Under the pieces are notes generated by a model. It worked only from the letters and a program-made list of their open reading frames with translations. It was not told the origin of the DNA and did no database searches. Positions 17,073 through 25,643 of a DNA stretch of 36,005 nucleotides are shown here, in pieces. A program made the position numbers and the translations under genes. Positions within the stretch are counted from its first letter, which is position 1, and each line of letters opens with the position of its first letter. The DNA is from Cellulomonas sp. IC4_254. GTDB lineage: Bacteria > Actinomycetota > Actinomycetes > Actinomycetales > Cellulomonadaceae. The DNA lies in contig NZ_JAANNB010000011.1 of NCBI RefSeq assembly GCF_011603975.1, positions 1-36,005 of the forward strand. Direction: 5' to 3'.

Positions 17073-17885
17073 TCAGGACTCCGGGAGCAGGACCTCGACG
17101 CCGGCCGCGTCCAGCGCGGCGCGCAGGTCGGCAGGCGGCGGGGCGTCCGTGACGAGGTAGTCCGCGCGGCCGAGCTCGGCGATCTGCGCGAACAGCCGCC
17201 GGCTGAACTTGGACGAGTCGGCGAGCACGGCGACCCGGTCGGCGCGGTCCATCATGTCGCCCATCATCGACGCCTCGACCAGGTTGCTCGTCGAGTACCC
17301 GACGTCGGCGGAGACGGCGCCGACGCCGATGAGCGCGAGGTCGCACCGGATGTCGACCTCGGGCTGGTGCGTCCACGCCGGCAGCCGCACCGGGCCGAGG
17401 GTGGCCTGGTCGGTGATCCGCACGCTGCCGCCGAACACGTACAGGTCGCGGTAGGCGGACGGGGCGAGCTCGGTGGCGCCGCGCAGGCTGTTGGTCGCGA
17501 CCGTGAGGTCCCGCCGCTCGCCCAGCGCCCGGATCAGCGCGAGCGTGGTGGTGCCGGCGTTCACGATGATCGCCTGCCCGTCCCGCACCAGCGCGGCCGC
17601 GCGGCCGCCGATCCGCTCCTTGGCCTGCGTCTGCATCCGCATCCGGACGTCGAGCTCGGTGTTGGGCCGCGGCGCGGTGCTCAGACCGACGGCCCCGCCG
17701 TGGGTGCGGACCAGCACGCCGTCGGCGTCGAGCTGGTCGAGGTCGCGGCGGATCGTGTCCGCGGAGACGTCGAACCGCTCGGCGAGCTGCGCGACGGTGA
17801 CCTCGCCGGTCTCGGTCACGTACGCGGCGAGCTCGGCCTTGCGCCCTGCCGGGAGGCGGCGCGGTGCGGTGTCGGAGGACGACAT
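17073..17885 (-). CDS. DeoR-family sugar-operon regulator
   Basis: The 270-residue protein has an N-terminal DeoR HTH (about 16-70: GEVTVAQLAERFDVSADTIRRDLDQL, DGVLVRTHGGAV) and a C-terminal sugar-phosphate-sensing DeoRC domain (VNAGTTTLALIRAL, YVFGGSVR, LIGVGAVS, DSSKFSRR). Family members usually repress a divergent sugar operon until a phosphorylated intermediate binds. It is divergent from the solute-binding-protein operon. Three direct repeats at 17953-18014 overlap that promoter and are the likely operators. A short inverted repeat AGCAC-N8-GTGCT (17898-17915) lies in its own upstream region. The inducer is probably a hexose phosphate produced by the operon. Confidence 0.92.
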   Translation of the reverse strand: MSSSDTAPRRLPAGRKAELAAYVTETGEVTVAQLAERFDVSADTIRRDLDQLDADGVLVRTHGGAVGLSTAPRPNTELDVRMRMQTQAKERIGGRAAALVRDGQAIIVNAGTTTLALIRALGERRDLTVATNSLRGATELAPSAYRDLYVFGGSVRITDQATLGPVRLPAWTHQPEVDIRCDLALIGVGAVSADVGYSTSNLVEASMMGDMMDRADRVAVLADSSKFSRRLFAQIAELGRADYLVTDAPPPADLRAALDAAGVEVLLPES

Positions 17886-17944: not shown

Positions 17945-17973
17945 TTGACGGCCGCAGAGACCCGCACTACCGT
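17945..17973 (+). promoter_or_regulatory. Promoter of the sugar operon
   Basis: TTGACG (17945-17950), 17 bases, TACCGT (17968-17973). The expected +1 is near 17980, giving a 5' leader of about 53 bases with a GGAGGGAG ribosome binding site at 18021-18028. Confidence 0.7.
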
Positions 17974-18014
17974 GCTCAAACACGCAGAGAAGCGCACTCC
18001 GCCGCAGAAAGCGG
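17953..18014 (+). repeat. Three direct repeats, probable DeoR operators
   Basis: CGCAGAGACCCGCAC starts at 17953, CGCAGAGAAGCGCAC at 17983 and CGCAGAAAGCGGCAT at 18003. The starts are 30 and 20 bases apart, near whole helical turns. The first lies between -35 and -10, the second just after +1, the third in the leader. This is the geometry of a repressor array. Confidence 0.6.
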
Positions 18015-18032
18015 CATCCCGGAGGGAGAGTC

Positions 18033-19328
18033 ATGAGCAACGGAGCTCGGATGCGGTACCTCAGTGCCGCGGCCATCGCCGGGGCCTCGGCCCTGGTCCT
18101 GACCGCGTGCGGCAGCGGCGGCGACGCCGGCGTCGGCGGCGGGTCGGACGGCGGTGACGTCACGCTCGAGTTCGCCCAGTGGTGGGAGCCCGAGCTGCCG
18201 GACGGCGCGTTCCGCGAGCTGATGGACAAGTTCGAGGACGAGAACCCCGGCATCACCGTCGAGCTGCTGAGCGGCCCGTACGCGTCCACCAAGGAGCAGG
18301 TCCTGGCCGGCGCGGCCGCCGGCACGATGTCGGACGTGGTCGGCCTGGACGGCGCCTGGGTCAACGACTTCGCCAAGCAGGGCGCCATCGCCGACCTGTC
18401 CGCGCTGATGGCGGACGACGGGTTCGACGACAGCCAGCTGGTCAGCCAGGTCCAGGTGGACGGCTCGACGTACATGATCCCGGTCGTGAACTTCGTGTAC
18501 CCGATGTTCACCAACGACGACCTGCTGGCGCAGGCCGGCGTGGACACGCCACCGAGCACCCGCACCGAGTTCCAGGACGCGGCCGAGGGCATCACCGCGC
18601 TGGGCGACAACACCTACGGCTGGGTGCTGCCGCTGTCGCTCGAGGCCCCCAACGGCGTGCAGAACGACGTCATGTCCTGGGTGTGGGCGTCCGGCGGCTC
18701 GATGCTGGACGACGGCCAGCCCGCGCTGACCGACAACCCGGACGTCGAGAGCGGCGTGCAGTTCGTCGCCGACCTCTGGGACGCGGGCGTCGTCGCGCCC
18801 GGCTCCTTCACGATGAAGGAGCAGGACAAGGTCGAGGAGTTCACCAACGGCCGGGTCGGCATGATGATCGACTCCCTGGCCCACGTGACGACGATCCAGG
18901 AGGCCAACCCCGACCTGCAGTTCTCGATCTCCGCCATCCCGGCCGAGGACGGGTACTCGGGCGAGCGGGGCATCCCCTACGCCTCGTGGGGCATCGGCGT
19001 CGCCGAGAACTCGGAGCACAAGGCCGAGGCGATGAAGCTGGTCGAGTTCCTCATGAGCGAGGAGACCAACGCTGAGCTGTCGTCGATCGCGAACGCGTTC
19101 CCCGGCAACACCGAGTCGGTGCCGGACTTCGTCGAGGACAACGAGCTCTTCGCGACCGCGTTCGAGATCTACCAGGACGGCTACCCGGCGAACGAGTTCA
19201 CCGGCCTGCCCGTCGCCGAGGAGCTCATGCGGCAGCTCGGCGAGCAGCTGCAGAAGACCCTCAACGGCGACCAGAGCGTCGACGACGCCCTCACCGCTGC
19301 CCAGGAGCAGTGGGAGAGCGAGTTCTGA
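18033..19328 (+). CDS. Sugar ABC transporter solute-binding lipoprotein
   Basis: The 431-residue protein has a lipoprotein signal with lipobox Leu-Thr-Ala-Cys (23-26), a Gly/Ser/Asp-rich linker, and a family 1 extracellular solute-binding domain (QWWEPEL, GPYASTKEQVLAGAAAGTMSDVVGLDG, IPVVNFVYPMFTNDDLLAQAG, WGIGVAENSEHKAEAMKLVEFLMS). It captures a sugar or oligosaccharide at the outer face of the membrane and delivers it to the two permeases encoded downstream. A strong GGAGGGAG precedes the ATG. A perfect 11-bp hairpin follows the gene. The ligand cannot be read from sequence; the downstream enzymes point to a hexose or hexose-containing compound. Confidence 0.94.
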   Translation: MSNGARMRYLSAAAIAGASALVLTACGSGGDAGVGGGSDGGDVTLEFAQWWEPELPDGAFRELMDKFEDENPGITVELLSGPYASTKEQVLAGAAAGTMSDVVGLDGAWVNDFAKQGAIADLSALMADDGFDDSQLVSQVQVDGSTYMIPVVNFVYPMFTNDDLLAQAGVDTPPSTRTEFQDAAEGITALGDNTYGWVLPLSLEAPNGVQNDVMSWVWASGGSMLDDGQPALTDNPDVESGVQFVADLWDAGVVAPGSFTMKEQDKVEEFTNGRVGMMIDSLAHVTTIQEANPDLQFSISAIPAEDGYSGERGIPYASWGIGVAENSEHKAEAMKLVEFLMSEETNAELSSIANAFPGNTESVPDFVEDNELFATAFEIYQDGYPANEFTGLPVAEELMRQLGEQLQKTLNGDQSVDDALTAAQEQWESEF

Positions 19329-19347
19329 CCGACCCCTCCAGCGACCG

Positions 19348-19379
19348 CGCCGGGCGGGCATCCCTGAACCCGCCCGGCG
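19348..19379 (+). repeat. Perfect 11-bp hairpin after the binding-protein gene
   Basis: CGCCGGGCGGG (19348-19358) and CCCGCCCGGCG (19369-19379) enclose a ten-base loop. Its place between binding protein and permease genes suggests partial termination or mRNA 3'-end protection, giving excess binding protein. Confidence 0.7.
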
Positions 19380-19406
19380 TGGTCCCCCGGTCAAGGAGGA
19401 CCGAGA

Positions 19407-20390
19407 GTGTTCACCTCGCACGTCGAGCGGCCCGTGGTCGCTCCCACCGCCGGCGGATCGCCGGGCCCGGACCGCGCGGCCCCGGCCGAGCAGCCGCCCG
19501 CCCGATCCGGCTGGGAGCGGCTGAAGCGCCGGCTCACGCCCTACGGGTTCCTGACGCCGACCGGCGTCCTCATGGCGATCCTCATGCTCACGCCGATCGT
19601 CATGGTGATCTGGTACTCGCTGCTGGACGGCGTGATCACGACCAAGAACTCCGCGTTCGTCGGGTTCGCCAACTACGCCGAGGTGCTCACCGACCCGGTG
19701 TTCTTCACCGCGGTCCGCAACACGCTCGTGTTCACCGTGTCCAGCGTGGTGGCGCACTTCGTCATCGGCCTCGGGTTCGCGATGCTGCTGAACACCCCGC
19801 TGCTGAGCCACCGCACCAAGGCGTTCTTCCGCGTGATCTACGTGCTGCCGTGGCTGTTCACGGTGGCGATCATCGCGGTGCTGTGGCGGCTGCTGCTCAA
19901 CCCGAACGGCGTCGTGAACTACCTGCTCGGCAGCCTCGGGCTCACCGGCGGCCAGACCGAGTGGCTGGCGGACCCGAGCACCGCGCTCGCCTCGGTCACG
20001 TTCATCAACATCTGGTCCGGCTACCCGTTCTTCATGATCAGCCTGCTGGCCGGGCTGCAGGGCATCCCCAAGGACCTGTACGAGGCCGCGCGGGTGGACG
20101 GGGCGACGCCGCTGCAGCAGTTCCGGAACGTGACCGTCCCGCAGCTGCGCCCGATCATCATCTCGATGGCGCTGCTGGACTTCATCTGGACCACGCAGCA
20201 GTTCGCGCTGATCTGGATGACCACCGGCGGCGGCCCGATCAACGCGACCGAGATGCTCAGCACCTTCACCTACAAGCTCGCGTTCAGCCGCTACGAGTTC
20301 TCGGTGGCGTCCGCGTCTGCGGTGGTCGTGCTGCTGCTGTCGATGGTCCTCGCATTCTTCTACGTCCGGCACCAGAAGGCGCGTGACTGA
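19407..20390 (+). CDS. Sugar ABC transporter permease (MalF/UgpA type)
   Basis: The 327-residue protein has a 45-residue Pro-rich cytoplasmic N-terminus, six predicted membrane helices and the EAA loop (YEAARVDGATPLQQFRNVTVPQLRP) that contacts the ATPase. It forms the translocation channel with the next gene's product. The GTG start is preceded by AAGGAGGA. The stop codon overlaps the next gene. No ATPase gene is found in the operon, so energy must come from a shared MsiK-like ATPase encoded elsewhere. Confidence 0.94.
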   Translation: MFTSHVERPVVAPTAGGSPGPDRAAPAEQPPARSGWERLKRRLTPYGFLTPTGVLMAILMLTPIVMVIWYSLLDGVITTKNSAFVGFANYAEVLTDPVFFTAVRNTLVFTVSSVVAHFVIGLGFAMLLNTPLLSHRTKAFFRVIYVLPWLFTVAIIAVLWRLLLNPNGVVNYLLGSLGLTGGQTEWLADPSTALASVTFINIWSGYPFFMISLLAGLQGIPKDLYEAARVDGATPLQQFRNVTVPQLRPIIISMALLDFIWTTQQFALIWMTTGGGPINATEMLSTFTYKLAFSRYEFSVASASAVVVLLLSMVLAFFYVRHQKARD

Positions 20391-21276
20391 CATGGCGACC
20401 CTGACCCCGACCCCCGTCCGCGCCGGCTCCCCGGAGCTCCGCCGGCCGCCCGCCAAGACCGGCCAGAAGGCGCTGGTGCTGGTCGCGCTGACGCTCGGCG
20501 CGCTGTTCGCCGGCCTGCCGGTGCTGTGGATGCTGTCGAGCTCGTTCAAGGCGAACCCGGAGATCTTCGCGTCCCCGCCGCGGCTGATCACCGAGGGGTT
20601 CTCGTTCGACGCGTACACCTCGATCCTCACCGACCCGGTGAAGCTCCGGTTCTTCGGGAACTCCTACCTCGTGGCGGGCGCGGTGACGCTGCTGACGCTG
20701 CTGGTGGCGGTGCTCGCGGCGTACGCGTTCAGCCGCTACGAGTTCCGCGGCAAGAAGGTCATCAACGTGGTGATCGTCAGCGTCCAGGCGGTCCCGCCGA
20801 TCACGCTGCTGATCCCGTACTTCGGCCTCGTGGTGGCGCTCAAGCTCTACAACACCTATCCCGGTCTGATCCTCACGTACATGGTGTTCACGCTGCCCTA
20901 CGCGATCATCATGATGACCGGGTACTTCAACACCCTGCCGCGGGAGCTCGACGAGGCCGTCAAGGTCGACGGCGCCGGGCCGCTCACCGCCCTGTGGCGC
21001 ATTCTCGTGCCCATCTCGGTGCCCGGTCTGGTCTCCGTCGGGATCTACACCTTCATGATCGCGTGGAACGAGTTCCTGTTCGCGCTGACGCTCACCCGCA
21101 CCGAGGACATGCGGACCGTCCCGATCGGCATCCAGCTGCTCATGGGCCAGCACTCGTACAACTGGAACGAGATGATGGCGATGAGCATTCTCGGGTGCAT
21201 TCCTGTCCTCGTTCTCTTCCTGTTCTTCCAGCGGTACTTCATCGGTGGGATGACCGCAGGGGCGGTCAAGGTCTGA
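20383..21276 (+). CDS. Sugar ABC transporter permease (MalG/UgpE type)
   Basis: The 297-residue protein has six membrane helices and the EAA loop (DEAVKVDGAGPLTALWRILVPISVPG). It pairs with the upstream permease. The GTG at 20383 overlaps the previous stop by eight bases; ATG 20392 (three residues later) is an equally good start because AAGGCG lies about ten bases before it. The C-terminal FQRYFIGGMTAGAVK is typical of the MalG branch. Confidence 0.94.
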   Translation: MTDMATLTPTPVRAGSPELRRPPAKTGQKALVLVALTLGALFAGLPVLWMLSSSFKANPEIFASPPRLITEGFSFDAYTSILTDPVKLRFFGNSYLVAGAVTLLTLLVAVLAAYAFSRYEFRGKKVINVVIVSVQAVPPITLLIPYFGLVVALKLYNTYPGLILTYMVFTLPYAIIMMTGYFNTLPRELDEAVKVDGAGPLTALWRILVPISVPGLVSVGIYTFMIAWNEFLFALTLTRTEDMRTVPIGIQLLMGQHSYNWNEMMAMSILGCIPVLVLFLFFQRYFIGGMTAGAVKV

Positions 21277-21334
21277 CGACCTCGGCCACGGCACGGCAAC
21301 GACGCACGACCCGACACGAAAGAGGAGTCACCCC

Positions 21335-22201
21335 ATGTTGATGAACGGCGCGGACCTGCTGGCCGTCGCGAACGAGCACAGCTTCGCGGTGCCGGCGTTC
21401 AACATCAGCGACTACGCGATGTTCAACGGCATCGTCGACGTCTCGGAGCAGCGGCGCGCGCCGCTGATCGTCGCGATCCACCCGGACGAGGTCAGCCACA
21501 TCGGCCACGACGTGCTGCCGGCGCTGATCCAGCGGGCGCACAAGGCGTCGGTGCCGGTGGCGATCCACTGGGACCACGGCGGCACCTACGAGCAGATGCT
21601 GCGGGCGTTCCAGATCGGCTTCACGTCGGTGATGATCGACGGGTCGATGCTCCCGTACGAGGAGAACGTCGCGCTGACCGCCAAGGTCGTCGAGGCCGCG
21701 CACGCGGTGGGCGTCTCGGTGGAGGGCGAGCTCGGCACCATCGGCAAGCTCGACGAGCAGGCGGAGGCCGGCGTCGCGGTGTCCGACATCATCTACACCG
21801 ACCCGGACCAGGCCGTGGACTTCGTGCAGCGCACCGGCGTCGACAGCCTCGCGATCGCGATCGGCACCGCGCACGGCCTGTACCCGAAGGGCCTCACGCC
21901 GGAGCTCAAGCTCGACCTGCTGACCGAGATCAAGTCCCGGCTGCCGATCCCGCTCGTGCTGCACGGCGGCTCCGGCAACCCGGACGACGAGATCGGCCGC
22001 GCGGTGAAGCTCGGCGTGAACAAGATCAACATCTCGAGCGACATCAAGGTCGCGTACCACGACCGGATGCGCGAGGTCCTCGCGGACCTCACGCTCCGCG
22101 AGCCGAACACGATCCAGCCCCCGGCCATCGAGGCGATGAACGCCGTCGCGGCGCAGAAGATCGAGCTGTTCGACGCGGCGGGCAAGGCCGACCTGTACTG
22201 A
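21335..22201 (+). CDS. Class II aldolase, GatY/KbaY (tagatose/fructose-bisphosphate) type
   Basis: The 288-residue protein has the zinc-dependent class II fold: VPAFNISDYAMF at the N-terminus, catalytic Asp80 and metal His81 in HWDHGG, Glu132 in EGELG, His180 in GTAHGLYP and His210 in VLHGGSG. Positions and length match KbaY/GatY better than long FbaA enzymes. It cleaves tagatose- or fructose-1,6-bisphosphate to glyceraldehyde-3-phosphate and dihydroxyacetone phosphate in the cytoplasm. Substrate specificity at C4 cannot be read by eye. GAAAGAGGAG precedes the ATG. It is followed by the sugar kinase gene after a 131-base gap with a hairpin. Confidence 0.93.
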   Translation: MLMNGADLLAVANEHSFAVPAFNISDYAMFNGIVDVSEQRRAPLIVAIHPDEVSHIGHDVLPALIQRAHKASVPVAIHWDHGGTYEQMLRAFQIGFTSVMIDGSMLPYEENVALTAKVVEAAHAVGVSVEGELGTIGKLDEQAEAGVAVSDIIYTDPDQAVDFVQRTGVDSLAIAIGTAHGLYPKGLTPELKLDLLTEIKSRLPIPLVLHGGSGNPDDEIGRAVKLGVNKINISSDIKVAYHDRMREVLADLTLREPNTIQPPAIEAMNAVAAQKIELFDAAGKADLY

Positions 22202-22219
22202 GATCGGCAGCACGGACGC

Positions 22220-22255
22220 CCCGGTCCGGGTCGGCACACCCCGGCCCGGACCGGG
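22220..22255 (+). repeat. Perfect 11-bp hairpin between aldolase and kinase genes
   Basis: 22220-22230 (C + CCGGTCCGGG) pairs with 22245-22255, with a 14-base loop. It is a candidate internal attenuator or processing site. Confidence 0.6.
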
Positions 22256-22290
22256 CTGCACCACCGCCGGCGCCCGCCGGCACCGGCAGG

Positions 22291-22314
22291 ACCGCACGAC
22301 CGCACAACCGCACG
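22291..22314 (+). repeat. Three tandem 8-bp repeats before the kinase gene
   Basis: ACCGCACG, ACCGCACA, ACCGCACG run head to tail, followed by a partial GACCGCG. They lie just upstream of the kinase ribosome binding site (GAAGGAG, about 22321). It may be simple slippage or a binding array. Confidence 0.5.
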
Positions 22315-22333
22315 GACCGCGAAGGAGCGGCAG

Positions 22334-23533
22334 ATGGGCACGCGCTACGTCCTCGGGCTCGGGGGGACCGTCGACTACGAGATCGACTGGGACCCCGCGA
22401 CGCTGACCCGGCTCGCGGCCGAGTGGGGCCTGCGGGCCGACGAGCTCGACGCCGGGGTGCCGATCCTGAGCGAGCGGGACCTGCTGCGCTCGCTGCTCGG
22501 CTTCGTCCGGGACGGCGTGGGCGGGGAGCGGTTCGTGGCGTCCTCGGAGATCGTCGAGGCGTTCGCCCGCCGGTTCGCGCGCCGCGTGACCCTGGGCGGC
22601 ACCTGCGTGCGGGCCGCCATCGCGATGGACCGGGTCCGCGACCTGCCCGCGCTGGTGCACCTGGTCAGCATCGACGACGACGTCCGGCGGCTGCTCCCGG
22701 CGTCGACCACCTACCTGTGCTCCGCGGACCGGGACACCACCGACCCGCACCTGATCGTGCAGTACCCCGCGGCGTCCCCGGTGCGGGTGGCCGGCGAGGA
22801 CGTCGTGGCCGCGCACCCGAACCGGCTCATCTACGTCAACGACCCGCCGAACCTGGAGCTGGTCCTGCACCCGGCCCTGGCCGACGCGGTGGCGGCCGCG
22901 GACGTGACGCTGGTGTCCGGGTTCAACGTGATCCAGGACCGCGCGCTGCTCGCCGACCGGCTCGCGACGGTCGCCGCGGCGCTCGACGGCCGCGCGCCCG
23001 GGTCGTTCGCCTACTTCGAGGACGCCGGGTACCACGTGCCCGCGCTCCGGGCGGACGTGCGGGACGCCCTCGCGGGCCGGGTCGACGCGTGGGCGATGAA
23101 CGAGGACGAGCTGCAGGTGTGGATCGGGCGCGCGGTCGACCTGCTGGACGCGGCCGACGTCGCGAAGGCCCTCGTCGACCTCCGGGCGGCGGTCCCGGCG
23201 CGGACCCTGGTCGTGCACACGAAGTACTGGGCGCTGGCCGCCGGGCCGGGCGCCGACGACCTGCGGCCGGCGCTGCGCGGCGGCATCACGATGGCGAGCA
23301 CCCGGTACCTGCACGGCGACGACTTCACCGTCGAGGACTACGCGGCGACCGGCGCGCGCGAGCCGGGGCCGCTGGGGGCTCGGTTCGCGGCGGAGGTCGA
23401 GGCCGTCGCGGGCGCGGCGACCGGGGCGCTGGCGTGCGAGCCCGCGTACGCGCTGGACGTGCCACGGCCGACCACCATCGGGCTGGGCGACACGTTCGTG
23501 GGCGGGTTCCTCGCGGCGCTGGCGGGGCGGTGA
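22334..23533 (+). CDS. Probable ADP-dependent glucokinase/phosphofructokinase-family sugar kinase
   Basis: The 399-residue protein belongs to the ribokinase-like fold. It has an early GLGGTVDYE, a GGTCVRAAIAM segment (88-98), LIYVNDPPNLELV, VTLVSGFNVIQD (191-202), a Mg-binding NEDE (256-259) and the catalytic GLGD (Asp386) followed by TFVGGF. The length, the NDPPN block and the VSGFNVIQD block are those of the ADP-dependent PFK/GK family, not of the roughly 310-residue PfkB enzymes. The region around Phe-Glu-Asp (228-230) occupies the place of the HxE motif but lacks the histidine. It would phosphorylate a hexose or fructose-6-phosphate using ADP and yield AMP. Family assignment is fairly sure, phosphoryl donor and substrate are inference. 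Confidence 0.75.
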   Translation: MGTRYVLGLGGTVDYEIDWDPATLTRLAAEWGLRADELDAGVPILSERDLLRSLLGFVRDGVGGERFVASSEIVEAFARRFARRVTLGGTCVRAAIAMDRVRDLPALVHLVSIDDDVRRLLPASTTYLCSADRDTTDPHLIVQYPAASPVRVAGEDVVAAHPNRLIYVNDPPNLELVLHPALADAVAAADVTLVSGFNVIQDRALLADRLATVAAALDGRAPGSFAYFEDAGYHVPALRADVRDALAGRVDAWAMNEDELQVWIGRAVDLLDAADVAKALVDLRAAVPARTLVVHTKYWALAAGPGADDLRPALRGGITMASTRYLHGDDFTVEDYAATGAREPGPLGARFAAEVEAVAGAATGALACEPAYALDVPRPTTIGLGDTFVGGFLAALAGR

Positions 23534-24564
23534 CGTCGGCGGTGCCCGGCGGGGCGGCGGCCCTGCTCGCGGGCGGGCTGGTCGCGCTGCCCGAGGCGGT
23601 CGCCCAGGTCGAGGAGGTGACCCGCACCGCGGGCGGCGAGCGGCTGCTGCTGGTCCGGCTGGCCGGCGGGCTGGCGTTCGACGTGCGCCCCGACCGGGGC
23701 CTCGACCTCGGGCCGGCGTGGTGGGGCGGCGTGCCCGTGGCCTGGCGGTCGCCGCACCGCGCCGACCCCGGGCCGGGCGCCGGCTGGGAGGAGCGGTTCC
23801 TCGGCGGGCTGGTCGTGACGTGCGGGCCGGAGAACATCGGGCCGCCCACCGCCACCGCCGGCCAGCACGGCAGCCACCACCTGACGCCCGCCACCGAGGT
23901 GCGCTGGTGGCGCGAGGTCACGCCCGGGGGCGTCGAGGTGCACGTGAGCGGCGTCGTGGGGTACTCGACGCTGTACGGGACGCGCGTCGTCGTCGAGCGG
24001 GAGATCGTCGCCGGCACCGACCGGCCGCGGGTGGAGGTCCGGGACGTCGTGCGCAACGACGGCGACGACCCCGTGGGCGTGCCGCTGCTCTACCACGTGA
24101 ACCTCGGGGCGCCGCTGCTCGCCCCGGGTGCGCGGCTGCGGGTCGACGCGGGGCGGACCGCGCTGCGCGACCCGCTGCCGCCCGGGCGGGACCCGCTCGT
24201 GCTGCCGCCGCCGGCCCCGGGTGCCGAGGCCGTCGTCGCGGAGCACCGGGACCTCGCGGCCGACGGGGAGGGGCGGGCGCGGGCGGTGCTGCCCGGGCCC
24301 GGCGCGGCGGTGGCGGTCGAGTGGCCCGCCGCGACGCTGCCCCGGCTGTGCACCTGGGCGTGGCCCGCGCGCGGGGCCTGGGTGCTGGGCGTCGAGCCGA
24401 CCAACGCGCCGCTGTTCGGCGCGGAGCGGGACGGTCCGCACGCCGGGGCGCCGGTGCTGGCGCCGGGCGCGTCGTGGCGCACCGGCGTGGCGGTCGAGGT
24501 GCTGCCGGGGGTGGGCGATGCGCGTGCCCCCGGTTCGGACGAGGACGAGGAGGGGACGGCGTGA
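23530..24564 (+). CDS. DUF4432 family protein (aldose 1-epimerase-like)
   Basis: The 344-residue protein begins at a GTG that overlaps the kinase stop by four bases (GTGA). It shows the DUF4432/galactose-mutarotase-like pattern: FDVRPDRGLDLGPAWWGGVPVAW, a GGLVVTCGPENIG segment, HGSHHLTPA, and YHVNLGAPLL in a beta-sandwich. Such proteins are found in sugar operons and are thought to interconvert anomers or epimers of aldoses, but biochemical data are sparse. Asp/Glu-rich C-terminus (GSDEDEEG). Its place between a sugar kinase and ManA supports a role in preparing the sugar for phosphorylation or isomerisation. Confidence 0.85.
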   Translation: MTSAVPGGAAALLAGGLVALPEAVAQVEEVTRTAGGERLLLVRLAGGLAFDVRPDRGLDLGPAWWGGVPVAWRSPHRADPGPGAGWEERFLGGLVVTCGPENIGPPTATAGQHGSHHLTPATEVRWWREVTPGGVEVHVSGVVGYSTLYGTRVVVEREIVAGTDRPRVEVRDVVRNDGDDPVGVPLLYHVNLGAPLLAPGARLRVDAGRTALRDPLPPGRDPLVLPPPAPGAEAVVAEHRDLAADGEGRARAVLPGPGAAVAVEWPAATLPRLCTWAWPARGAWVLGVEPTNAPLFGAERDGPHAGAPVLAPGASWRTGVAVEVLPGVGDARAPGSDEDEEGTA

Positions 24565-25643
24565 CGACGGAGCAGACGACGGTGGCGGGCGCGGTGGCGG
24601 GCGCGAGCGGTGGCGCGGGGTCCGGTCCGGCGCCGGCCGGCCCGGTGATCCTGCCGGCCAACCAGCCCGCCGACCGGTTCTACGCCGGCGGTGCCCGCAT
24701 CGCCGGGTTCCGCGGCCCGGCCGGCGCGCCGGCCGGCGGTGACCACGTGCCGGAGGACTGGGTCGGCTCCACGACGACCCTGTTCGGCGAGGACACCCTC
24801 GGCCTGACCCGGCTGCCCGGCGGCGGGACGCTCGCCGACGCCGTGGCGGCGGACCCCGTGGCCTGGCTGGGTCCGGAGCGCGCGGCCGCGCACGGCGCCG
24901 ACGTCGGCCTGCTCGTCAAGCTGCTGGACGCGGGGGAGCGGCTGCCCGTGCACGCGCACCCCGACGTGCCGTTCGCGGCCCGGCACCTCGGGCTGGCGCA
25001 CGGCAAGACCGAGGCGTGGGTGGCGATGACCGCCGCGCCGGTGCACCTGGGCTTCCGGCGCGACGTCGCCGTCGAGGATCTGCGCCGGTGGGTCGACGCG
25101 CAGGACGCCCCCGCGATGCTCGACGCGATGCACGTCCTGCACCTGGAGCCCGGCGACGCGGTGCTCGTCCCGGCCGGGCTGCCGCACGCGATCGGCGCCG
25201 GGGCGTTCGTCGTCGAGCTCCAGGAGCCGACGGACCTGTCGATCCTGGTCGAGTGGGCGGGGTTCGCGATCGACGGGACCGTCGCCGGGCACCTCGGGCT
25301 CGGGTTCGACACGGCGCTCGCGGCCGTCGACCGTCGGGGCCGGTCGGCGGCGGAGATCGCGGCGCTGCGGGGTGCGCGGGATGGCGACACCGGCGACCTG
25401 CTCCCGGACGCCGCACCGTTCTTCCGGGTCGAGCGGTGGCGCGCGGCGGGGGAGTGGGACGCGGGGTTCGCGGTCGCCGTGGTCGTCGACGGGGCGGGCG
25501 CCCTCGTGTCGCCGGATGGCGGTCGCACCCCCGTCCGGCGCGGGTCGACGGTGCTGGTGCCGTGGTCGGCGGGCGCCCTGCGGCTCGAGCCGGACGCCGG
25601 GGCGGGCCTCGAGGTGCTGCGCTGCCGGCCACCGGCGGCGTGA
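24561..25643 (+). CDS. Class I mannose-6-phosphate isomerase (ManA-like)
   Basis: The 360-residue cupin-fold enzyme has the metal site LPVHAHPD (His131, His133), the following HGKTEAWV (Glu151) and the late PAGLPHAIG histidine, as in class I phosphomannose isomerases. It interconverts mannose-6-phosphate and fructose-6-phosphate or a related aldose/ketose phosphate. The first 25 residues are Ala/Gly-rich and not part of the fold, so the start may be later than the GTG at 24561, although that GTG overlaps the DUF4432 stop by GTGA in the same manner as the previous gene pair. It is the last gene of the operon. Confidence 0.9.
   Translation: MTTEQTTVAGAVAGASGGAGSGPAPAGPVILPANQPADRFYAGGARIAGFRGPAGAPAGGDHVPEDWVGSTTTLFGEDTLGLTRLPGGGTLADAVAADPVAWLGPERAAAHGADVGLLVKLLDAGERLPVHAHPDVPFAARHLGLAHGKTEAWVAMTAAPVHLGFRRDVAVEDLRRWVDAQDAPAMLDAMHVLHLEPGDAVLVPAGLPHAIGAGAFVVELQEPTDLSILVEWAGFAIDGTVAGHLGLGFDTALAAVDRRGRSAAEIAALRGARDGDTGDLLPDAAPFFRVERWRAAGEWDAGFAVAVVVDGAGALVSPDGGRTPVRRGSTVLVPWSAGALRLEPDAGAGLEVLRCRPPAA

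Follow-up and report, generated by a model that had tools for sequence, protein, structure and literature searches.

What does a sugar kinase of the ADP-dependent family do in a bacterial transport operon, where it is encoded next to a class II aldolase, i.e., which sugar phosphate is made and which one is cleaved? The question is raised by a stretch of DNA of 36,005 nucleotides (referred to as the window) from Cellulomonas sp. IC4_254, an actinobacterium of the soil type. The window represents contig C22 of a genome that totals 4.05 Mb and is split into 407 contigs, and among named organisms its nearest relatives are Cellulomonas species. An operon in the window encodes components of an ATP-binding cassette (ABC) importer, the aldolase, the kinase, a DUF4432 protein and a ManA-like protein (Table 1). 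An earlier note on this DNA had located these genes correctly, at positions 18033..25643, and proposed that the kinase, possibly by acting twice, provides the aldolase with a 1,6-bisphosphate. Our preferred reading, to which we give an even chance, is instead a ketose-catabolic cassette in which a free sugar would be phosphorylated a single time, with C1 as the favored position and direct cleavage as the favored next step.

The kinase is a member of the family of ADP-dependent sugar kinases, as the earlier note had suspected. In a Pfam scan it scored 66.7 bits with ADP_PFK_GK (PF04587, cut-off 27) over residues 8-263, while the score with PfkB was 24.9 bits, i.e., below the cut-off of 25.8, and the fold Z value for PfkB was far lower, so that a PfkB assignment was rejected. 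It is the only PF04587 match in the window's genome, and it had no match in the plasmid collection. The whole chain fits the two-domain fold of the ADP-dependent glucokinases (GKs) and phosphofructokinases (PFKs), and the best 17 structural matches, ranked by a VIA-align re-ranking of Foldseek's own matches, are all members of this family. The scores were 34-36 for the leading archaeal GKs, 34.3 for the bifunctional enzyme and 32.5 for the P. horikoshii PFK, a ranking that leans weakly to the glucokinase type and is no clean test. The single kinase sequence matched no solved chain at E values up to 1, whereas a profile built from 27 kinase sequences did match solved chains.

The active-site residues are more informative about the substrate. 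An excerpt of a study of the family (PMC7948494) states that K179, N181 and R212 (numbering of AncMsPFK) are shared by PFKs and bifunctional enzymes, that GKs and bifunctional enzymes share E90, and that R206 is conserved family-wide and required for activity; according to the same excerpt, the T. litoralis GK has a His at the N181 position. In our alignments, K179, N181 and R212 correspond to D137, H139 and D170 of the window kinase, and E90 and R206 are both kept, as E65 and R164. Residues H139, D170, E65 and R164 are each found in 174 of 174 aligned kinase homologues and D137 in 171, where the set comprises 121 listed proteins, the 52 related loci described below and the window again (the window is thus counted twice, and proteins may repeat loci). 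The GXGD motif (G383-L-G-D386) is present in all 171 homologues with letters at these positions (3 gaps), and N256 and E259 of the NXXE motif in all 173 (1 gap); R164 is the catalytic Arg. The family-conserved Asn, N32 in AncMsPFK, approximately aligns by eye, beyond the alignment coverage, with G10, which is Gly in 172 of 174 homologues. The sugar loop is GGT or GGS instead of the glucokinase GGQ, and the score with the ADP-glucokinase equivalog NF010642 was 53.2 (cut-off 387). An assignment as PFK was rejected because all three residues that bind fructose 6-phosphate (F6P) in characterized PFKs and bifunctional enzymes are replaced; the ADP-glucokinase signature, i.e., Glu at the E90 site and His at the 181 site, is present. 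Judged from these residues, the pocket is of the glucokinase type and differs by GGT for GGQ. Because the F6P residues are lost while the glucokinase-type Glu and His are kept, a single phosphorylation of a free sugar is a more likely role for the kinase than the synthesis of a bisphosphate. ADP is presumably the phosphate donor.

The kinase gene is linked to the aldolase gene throughout the relatives. A scan of genome contigs with six exact peptides of the window kinase, a query that favors close relatives, identified 52 related loci, and all matches were actinobacterial (locus counts rest on tblastn or profile matches). Six core genes, encoding a DeoR-family repressor, the substrate-binding lipoprotein (SBP), two permeases, the aldolase and the kinase, are found together in 49 of the 52 loci, and the remaining three (L031, L036, L045) start within the cluster, at a contig end. 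Because this set recurs across the related loci, the arrangement is not due to chance. The aldolase match ends 2-121 nt upstream of the kinase match in all 52 loci. An independent sample, 121 genomes from the taxonomic family to which the window belongs, agrees with this: the aldolase (E<=1e-60) is present in 13 and kinase matches are found in 16, i.e., 13 strong ones (E<=6.2e-100) and 3 short pieces (E 9.1e-12 to 6.3e-4). The 13 genomes with the aldolase are the same as those with the strong kinase matches, and the two genes are adjacent in each of them. Among the ten listed members of the genus both genes are found only in the window's genome, and a thin, even draw across the phylum yielded the kinase in 1 of 296 genomes, the window's own. 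The kinase-aldolase pair is thus patchy but inseparable.

Two genomes carry apparent remnants or interrupted matches. In one of the same genus (G397) an apparent deletion scar (L104:8441-9838) joins the last 53 residues of DeoR to approximately the last 80 residues of the kinase; importer and aldolase matches were not found within the 13 kb covered. Next to the scar comes a ManA-like match of almost full length (64% identity). At G387:C1:2615596-2616779 the kinase match consists of two overlapping pieces, possibly due to a frameshift in the gene or the assembly.

The aldolase is a member of its superfamily, with 307.1 bits for F_bP_aldolase (PF01116, cut-off 25.5) and 259.3 for the ketose-bisphosphate aldolase model TIGR00167 (cut-off 215.6). 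Its best model is PRK08185 (NF006042), where a score of 392 is below the cut-off of 405, and it groups with members that exceed this cut-off, at 471.7 (in the tree) and 525.6 (from E. coli, by alignment). A tree of 53 rows (51 different) contains an 18-row group composed of the window aldolase, its actinobacterial relatives, sequences from Listeria, Enterococcus, Pantoea and Carnobacterium, and that of a distant actinobacterium (G120). The support of 92/91 is short of the tool's 95/80 mark, and the genome's other aldolase (L058), which is included in the tree and has a very long branch, may be falsely joined to this group. All 18 rows have HP-x-E at residues 49-52. The sister group, with 26 rows, includes GatY and KbaY (both with Thr); residue 49 is Ser or Thr in 25 of these rows, while the stretch printed for the remaining one, L083, does not extend to this site. 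The residue is Gly in YdjI, and Ala or Leu in seven further rows close to YdjI. Wherever an aldolase homologue has a letter at these sites, H49 is invariant (172 of 172), as is K238 (173 of 173); residue 238 is Lys also in GatY and KbaY and Cys in YdjI. Residues 49 and 238 are those that we take to contact the 6-phosphate in class II aldolases, and since H49 replaces Ser/Thr but K238 is retained, the evidence from these residues as to a 6-phosphate site is mixed. The earlier description as “GatY/KbaY-type” was partly right, but the corresponding models scored far below their cut-offs (258.4 vs 383, 239.4 vs 443.55 and 192.7 vs 542), PRK08185 being the best; these scores, the H49 residue and the separate tree group led us to reject a plain GatY/KbaY aldolase.

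The same aldolase branch is found in a different setting elsewhere. Eight loci with annotated or scanned genes encode an HP-x-E aldolase but no ADP-type kinase: six from the plasmid collection, taken from the top search rows (Listeria innocua, L. monocytogenes, Enterococcus gilvus, two Pantoea and Carnobacterium), that of G120 (L096) and one in E. coli. In all eight, genes for a fructose-family phosphotransferase system (PTS) adjoin the aldolase gene, and at the G120 locus PTS IIA, IIB and IIC all exceed the NCBIfam cut-offs. A sugar kinase is not annotated in the stretches of the six plasmid-collection loci, for which the gene table is incomplete. The E. coli locus (L108:1953-8896 and L109) is situated between yicI and yicH, and we take it to be the frz operon of extraintestinal E. 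coli, for which we know of no established sugar. It encodes a BglG-type regulator, a fructose-type PTS, two class II aldolases, an ROK protein closest to fructokinase (320.6 bits, cut-off 443) and an isomerase-like protein closest to D-lyxose/D-mannose isomerase (272 bits, cut-off 350); the aldolase gene is present in 1580 of 5426 complete E. coli genomes (>=80% coverage). From these comparisons, the ADP-type kinase seems to replace phosphorylation by the PTS.

Tandem pairs of unlike class II aldolases, the second of which is of the HP-x-E type, stand beside the PTS genes in Listeria (L093:7130-8900), G120 (L096:6675-8528) and E. coli (L108:5463-7255). Two more loci add little: in Pseudomonas silvicola (L106) a PTS IIA is annotated near a broken-looking match, and L107 carries no annotation. 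Two records within the plasmid collection, NZ_CP134663.1 and NZ_CP030101.1, are chromosome-sized (4.9 and 2.9 Mb).

The genes after the kinase are more variable and can be regarded as optional. The DUF4432 protein of the window scores 203.4 bits with PF14486 (cut-off 32.5) and has a distant solved relative, 3ty1, a “Hypothetical aldose 1-epimerase” (E 9.9e-13); it is probably an aldose mutarotase, the activity expected for its family. For the ManA-like cupin the only NCBIfam match is TIGR00218, at 38.2 bits (cut-off 116.2), so that the earlier label “ManA-like” describes a weak match; a relationship to solved ManA is seen with a 10-sequence profile, which hits 1qwr, the B. subtilis ManA (E 7.8e-20), as well as 1zx5 (E 1.3e-17). 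Mutarotase-like and isomerase-like proteins are thus encoded beside the aldolase and the kinase, as had been proposed. Among the 52 loci, DUF4432 is found in at least 12 and the ManA-like gene in at least 14 (not seen in 38), and the kinase gene is followed by an RbsD/FucU-family gene in at least 4 and by a gene of the GlcNAc 2-epimerase (AGE) family in at least 2; these counts are lower bounds because the sequence of six loci stops no more than 1200 nt beyond the kinase. Two of the four RbsD/FucU proteins were scanned, and in both the model of L-fucose mutarotase (79 and 81 bits against a cut-off of 141) outscored that of D-ribose pyranase (32 and 35, cut-off 93). The AGE-family protein of L029, a homologue of which is found in L036, is closest to D-mannose isomerase (422.5 bits, cut-off 600), and its best solved relatives are YihS and sulfoquinovose isomerase; AGE-family isomerases act on free sugars. 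The presumed mutarotase and isomerase slots are therefore filled by unrelated families across lineages, and the isomerases of three lineages hint at a pair like D-mannose/D-fructose (or lyxose/xylulose). A scan of five neighboring proteins in four loci, i.e., not a survey, identified an aldo/keto reductase domain (L029:10231-11574) approximately 0.2 kb downstream of the isomerase gene and, in another locus, an aldehyde dehydrogenase domain (L041:10761-12728) approximately 1.1 kb downstream of it, a weak hint in favor of direct cleavage of a 1-phosphate.

In the proposed route the importer would take up a free sugar. If this sugar is an aldose, it would be converted to the ketose by the DUF4432 mutarotase and the ManA-like protein acting as a free-sugar isomerase. 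The glucokinase-type, ADP-family kinase would then phosphorylate the free sugar once, at the place held by the fructose-type PTS in the related operons. With the phosphate at C1 the product would be a ketose 1-phosphate, which the dedicated class II aldolase would cleave to dihydroxyacetone phosphate (DHAP) and an aldehyde, following the logic of YdjH/YdjI and of the sulfoglycolytic Embden-Meyerhof-Parnas (sulfo-EMP) pathway. We infer the sugar, the C1 position and the roles of the isomerase and mutarotase. The genome also encodes two PFK-A-family proteins, one 1-phosphofructokinase (FruK) above its cut-off and a second class II aldolase; the route had been called self-contained, which holds in part, given these housekeeping enzymes and the 38 loci without a visible ManA-like gene. 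Because these PFKs and the second aldolase would make the paired aldolase needless for F6P, the phosphate should be on C1, or the ketose should not be fructose. A more specific version is possible, though we would put it below an even chance: an ADP-dependent ketohexokinase-type enzyme would form a ketose 1-phosphate to be split by a dedicated class II ketose-1-phosphate aldolase. Fructolysis as it occurs in the liver would then have a bacterial counterpart, one that saves ATP and in which an ABC importer and an ADP kinase replace the fructose-type PTS.

Some observations weigh against a single phosphorylation followed by direct cleavage. Lysine 238 of the aldolase is kept; in the fold comparison the P. 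horikoshii PFK outranks two GK entries, that of the mouse (30.1) and one from P. horikoshii (31.5); and an explanation with a borrowed second kinase is nearly as good. Here, the operon kinase would make a ketose 6- or 1-phosphate, a housekeeping PFK or FruK would add the second phosphate, and the aldolase would split a non-fructose ketose 1,6-bisphosphate, tagatose- or other-type, to DHAP and glyceraldehyde 3-phosphate. We regard this explanation as tentative, somewhat short of probable. The lysine is that of GatY and KbaY, TIGR00167 describes ketose-bisphosphate aldolases, the two PFK-A proteins and FruK could act as the second kinase, and an additional, fructokinase-like ROK protein is encoded beside the E. 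coli relative. In addition, an excerpt of PMC10101011 reports that E. coli evolved to use tagatose via the fructose PTS and a mutation in 1-phosphofructokinase. On the other hand, the His that replaces the Thr of GatY/KbaY and the Ser/Thr of the sister group is kept without exception, the GatY/KbaY models are far below their cut-offs, and the six PTS operons have no annotated sugar kinase.

A bifunctional ADP kinase that acts on both the free sugar and its 6-phosphate would yield fructose or tagatose 1,6-bisphosphate within the operon, which is the route of the earlier note; with three of three F6P residues of the ADP-PFKs and bifunctional enzymes replaced, synthesis of a 1,6-bisphosphate or a double phosphorylation by this kinase is highly unlikely. 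Import of the sugar as its 6-phosphate, also part of that route, was supported by none of our results. The operon could also be a mannose/fructose feeder, where the kinase makes a hexose 6-phosphate, the ManA-like protein isomerizes it to F6P for normal glycolysis, and the aldolase is an extra. The glucokinase-type Glu and His and the match of the ManA-like protein to mannose-6-phosphate isomerases would fit, but it is the aldolase that accompanies the kinase in every locus and in 13 of 13 genomes, compared with 14 of 52 loci for the ManA-like gene; moreover, the genome already holds a second class II aldolase, and the AGE-family isomerases found after the kinase in two loci act on free sugars. 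This alternative is very improbable. Sulfoquinovose would suit the four-step logic, but it was rejected as the substrate in the window because no operon gene resembles a sulfoquinovosidase or a sulfolactaldehyde enzyme; SmoF, which binds sulfoquinovosyl-glycerol, is found among many weak relatives of the SBP (E 5.4e-11). Sulfoquinovose may be the substrate at L029, where the isomerase is YihS-like.

Table 1. Positions of the operon genes and of the divergent regulatory region in the window.
Feature	Position	Strand	Basis or remark
DeoR-family repressor	17073..17885	-	Divergent from operon; Pfam DeoRC/HTH_DeoR
Candidate promoter TTGACG-N17-TACCGT	17945..17973	+	Read from sequence
Candidate operator, repeated CGCA-containing half-sites, promoter-to-SBP gap	17978..18018	+	Read from sequence
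ABC importer substrate-binding lipoprotein (SBP)	18033..19328	+	Pfam SBP_bac_1, 119 bits
ABC permease A	19407..20390	+	Pfam BPD_transp_1; MalF/UgpA-like, below cut-offs
ABC permease B	20392..21276	+	Pfam BPD_transp_1; GlcU/MalG-like, below cut-offs
Class II aldolase, PRK08185 HP-x-E branch	21335..22201	+	Pfam F_bP_aldolase, NF006042, tree, residues H49/K238
ADP-dependent-kinase-family sugar kinase, glucokinase-type active-site signature	22334..23533	+	Pfam ADP_PFK_GK, residues
DUF4432 protein, probable aldose mutarotase	23530..24564	+	Pfam DUF4432, 3ty1 match
ManA-like cupin, probable aldose-ketose isomerase	24561..25643	+	Weak TIGR00218; profile match to ManA structures

With the GTG starts chosen here, the DUF4432 and ManA-like genes each overlap the preceding gene by 4 bases. 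The operon had been said to encode an importer; the SBP and two permeases are present, but an ABC ATPase gene is absent from the operon. A shared ATPase is common among such importers in actinobacteria. The nearest solved chains of the SBP are acarbose/maltose binders (E 2e-19 or weaker), followed by many other sugar binders, and the comparison with solved relatives gave no ligand assignment. The DeoR gene adjoins the operon in 49 of the 52 loci. In the stretches between the DeoR and SBP genes (the window and 49 loci, with bounds set by BLAST matches), the 7-mer CGCAGAA occurs in 30 of 50, a count inflated by shared ancestry, while the best 7-mer in 20 mononucleotide shuffles reached 13; the CGCA-containing repeats are, as read from the sequence, a likely candidate for the DeoR operator. 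Several neighboring stretches of the related loci (e.g., L020:1565-2806 and L012:7330-8160) gave no Pfam family match on the frames tried.

The claim that a protein of the ADP-dependent kinase family is encoded in an actinobacterial transport operon is borne out by both profile and fold. To our knowledge, the characterized enzymes of this family are archaeal or mammalian. The name “ADP-dependent glucokinase/phosphofructokinase” is, however, already in use for actinobacterial proteins of this kind in public databases, so that their mere presence is less notable than the earlier note had put it. Of 8000 candidates that were scored, 1906 were relatives of the kinase at E<=0.001 (with 120 of them listed), and the excerpt of PMC7948494 reports the family in bacteria. 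The kinase family and the superfamily of the aldolase are already known, as is the logic of combining the two, while the conserved pairing, the glucokinase-type signature beside the aldolase, and the exchange of the PTS for an ABC importer and an ADP-type kinase appear to be new; a description of the kinase-aldolase operon was not found among the papers listed in searches of the open-licence PMC literature. A fixed partner enzyme in a conserved bacterial operon makes the substrate of the kinase findable by a coupled assay. Its identification would test whether this kinase family starts bacterial sugar breakdown with ADP, and it would supply a reaction for the PRK08185 branch of aldolases, described in NCBIfam as “hypothetical protein”, and contribute to an explanation of PTS operons like that of E. 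coli. If a ketose 1-phosphate is indeed cleaved, a function would also be found for the PTS operons of E. coli, Listeria and Enterococcus.

The window operon can be compared with several known systems. With the archaeal and mammalian ADP-dependent GKs and PFKs (PF04587) the window kinase shares the fold, the Pfam family, GXGD, NXXE, the catalytic Arg and the glucokinase-type Glu/His, but the identity is 14-20% in structural alignments, the chain is shorter (399 residues vs approximately 430-490), GGT replaces GGQ, the F6P residues are replaced, and the gene resides in an importer-aldolase operon. Another bacterial sugar kinase that uses ADP, a cyanobacterial enzyme reported in PMC11609450, belongs to the PFK-A family and not to PF04587. 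The D-tagatose pathways with GatY/KbaY share the class II aldolase and the equivalent of K238, but the window aldolase has H49 in place of Thr. In the PTS operons with a PRK08185 aldolase (Listeria, Enterococcus, Pantoea, Carnobacterium and E. coli) the aldolase is of the same branch (46-54% identity), and the sugar is phosphorylated on entry by the PTS instead of by an ADP-type kinase after uptake through an ABC importer; the E. coli operon adds the ROK protein, the second aldolase and the D-lyxose/D-mannose isomerase-like protein. E. coli YdjH and YdjI, annotated as octuluronate kinase and octuluronate-1-phosphate aldolase, likewise combine a kinase with a class II aldolase, i.e., one phosphorylation followed by cleavage. 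YdjH is a PfkB-type kinase, and YdjI is 36% identical to the window aldolase and lacks H49 and K238. In the sulfo-EMP pathway, sulfofructose 1-phosphate is cleaved to DHAP and sulfolactaldehyde, as stated in an excerpt of PMC8873060. The kinase and aldolase of the window are from other families than those of this pathway, but its mutarotase (YihR), isomerase (YihS), kinase (YihV) and aldolase (YihT) define four steps in the same order as those proposed here.

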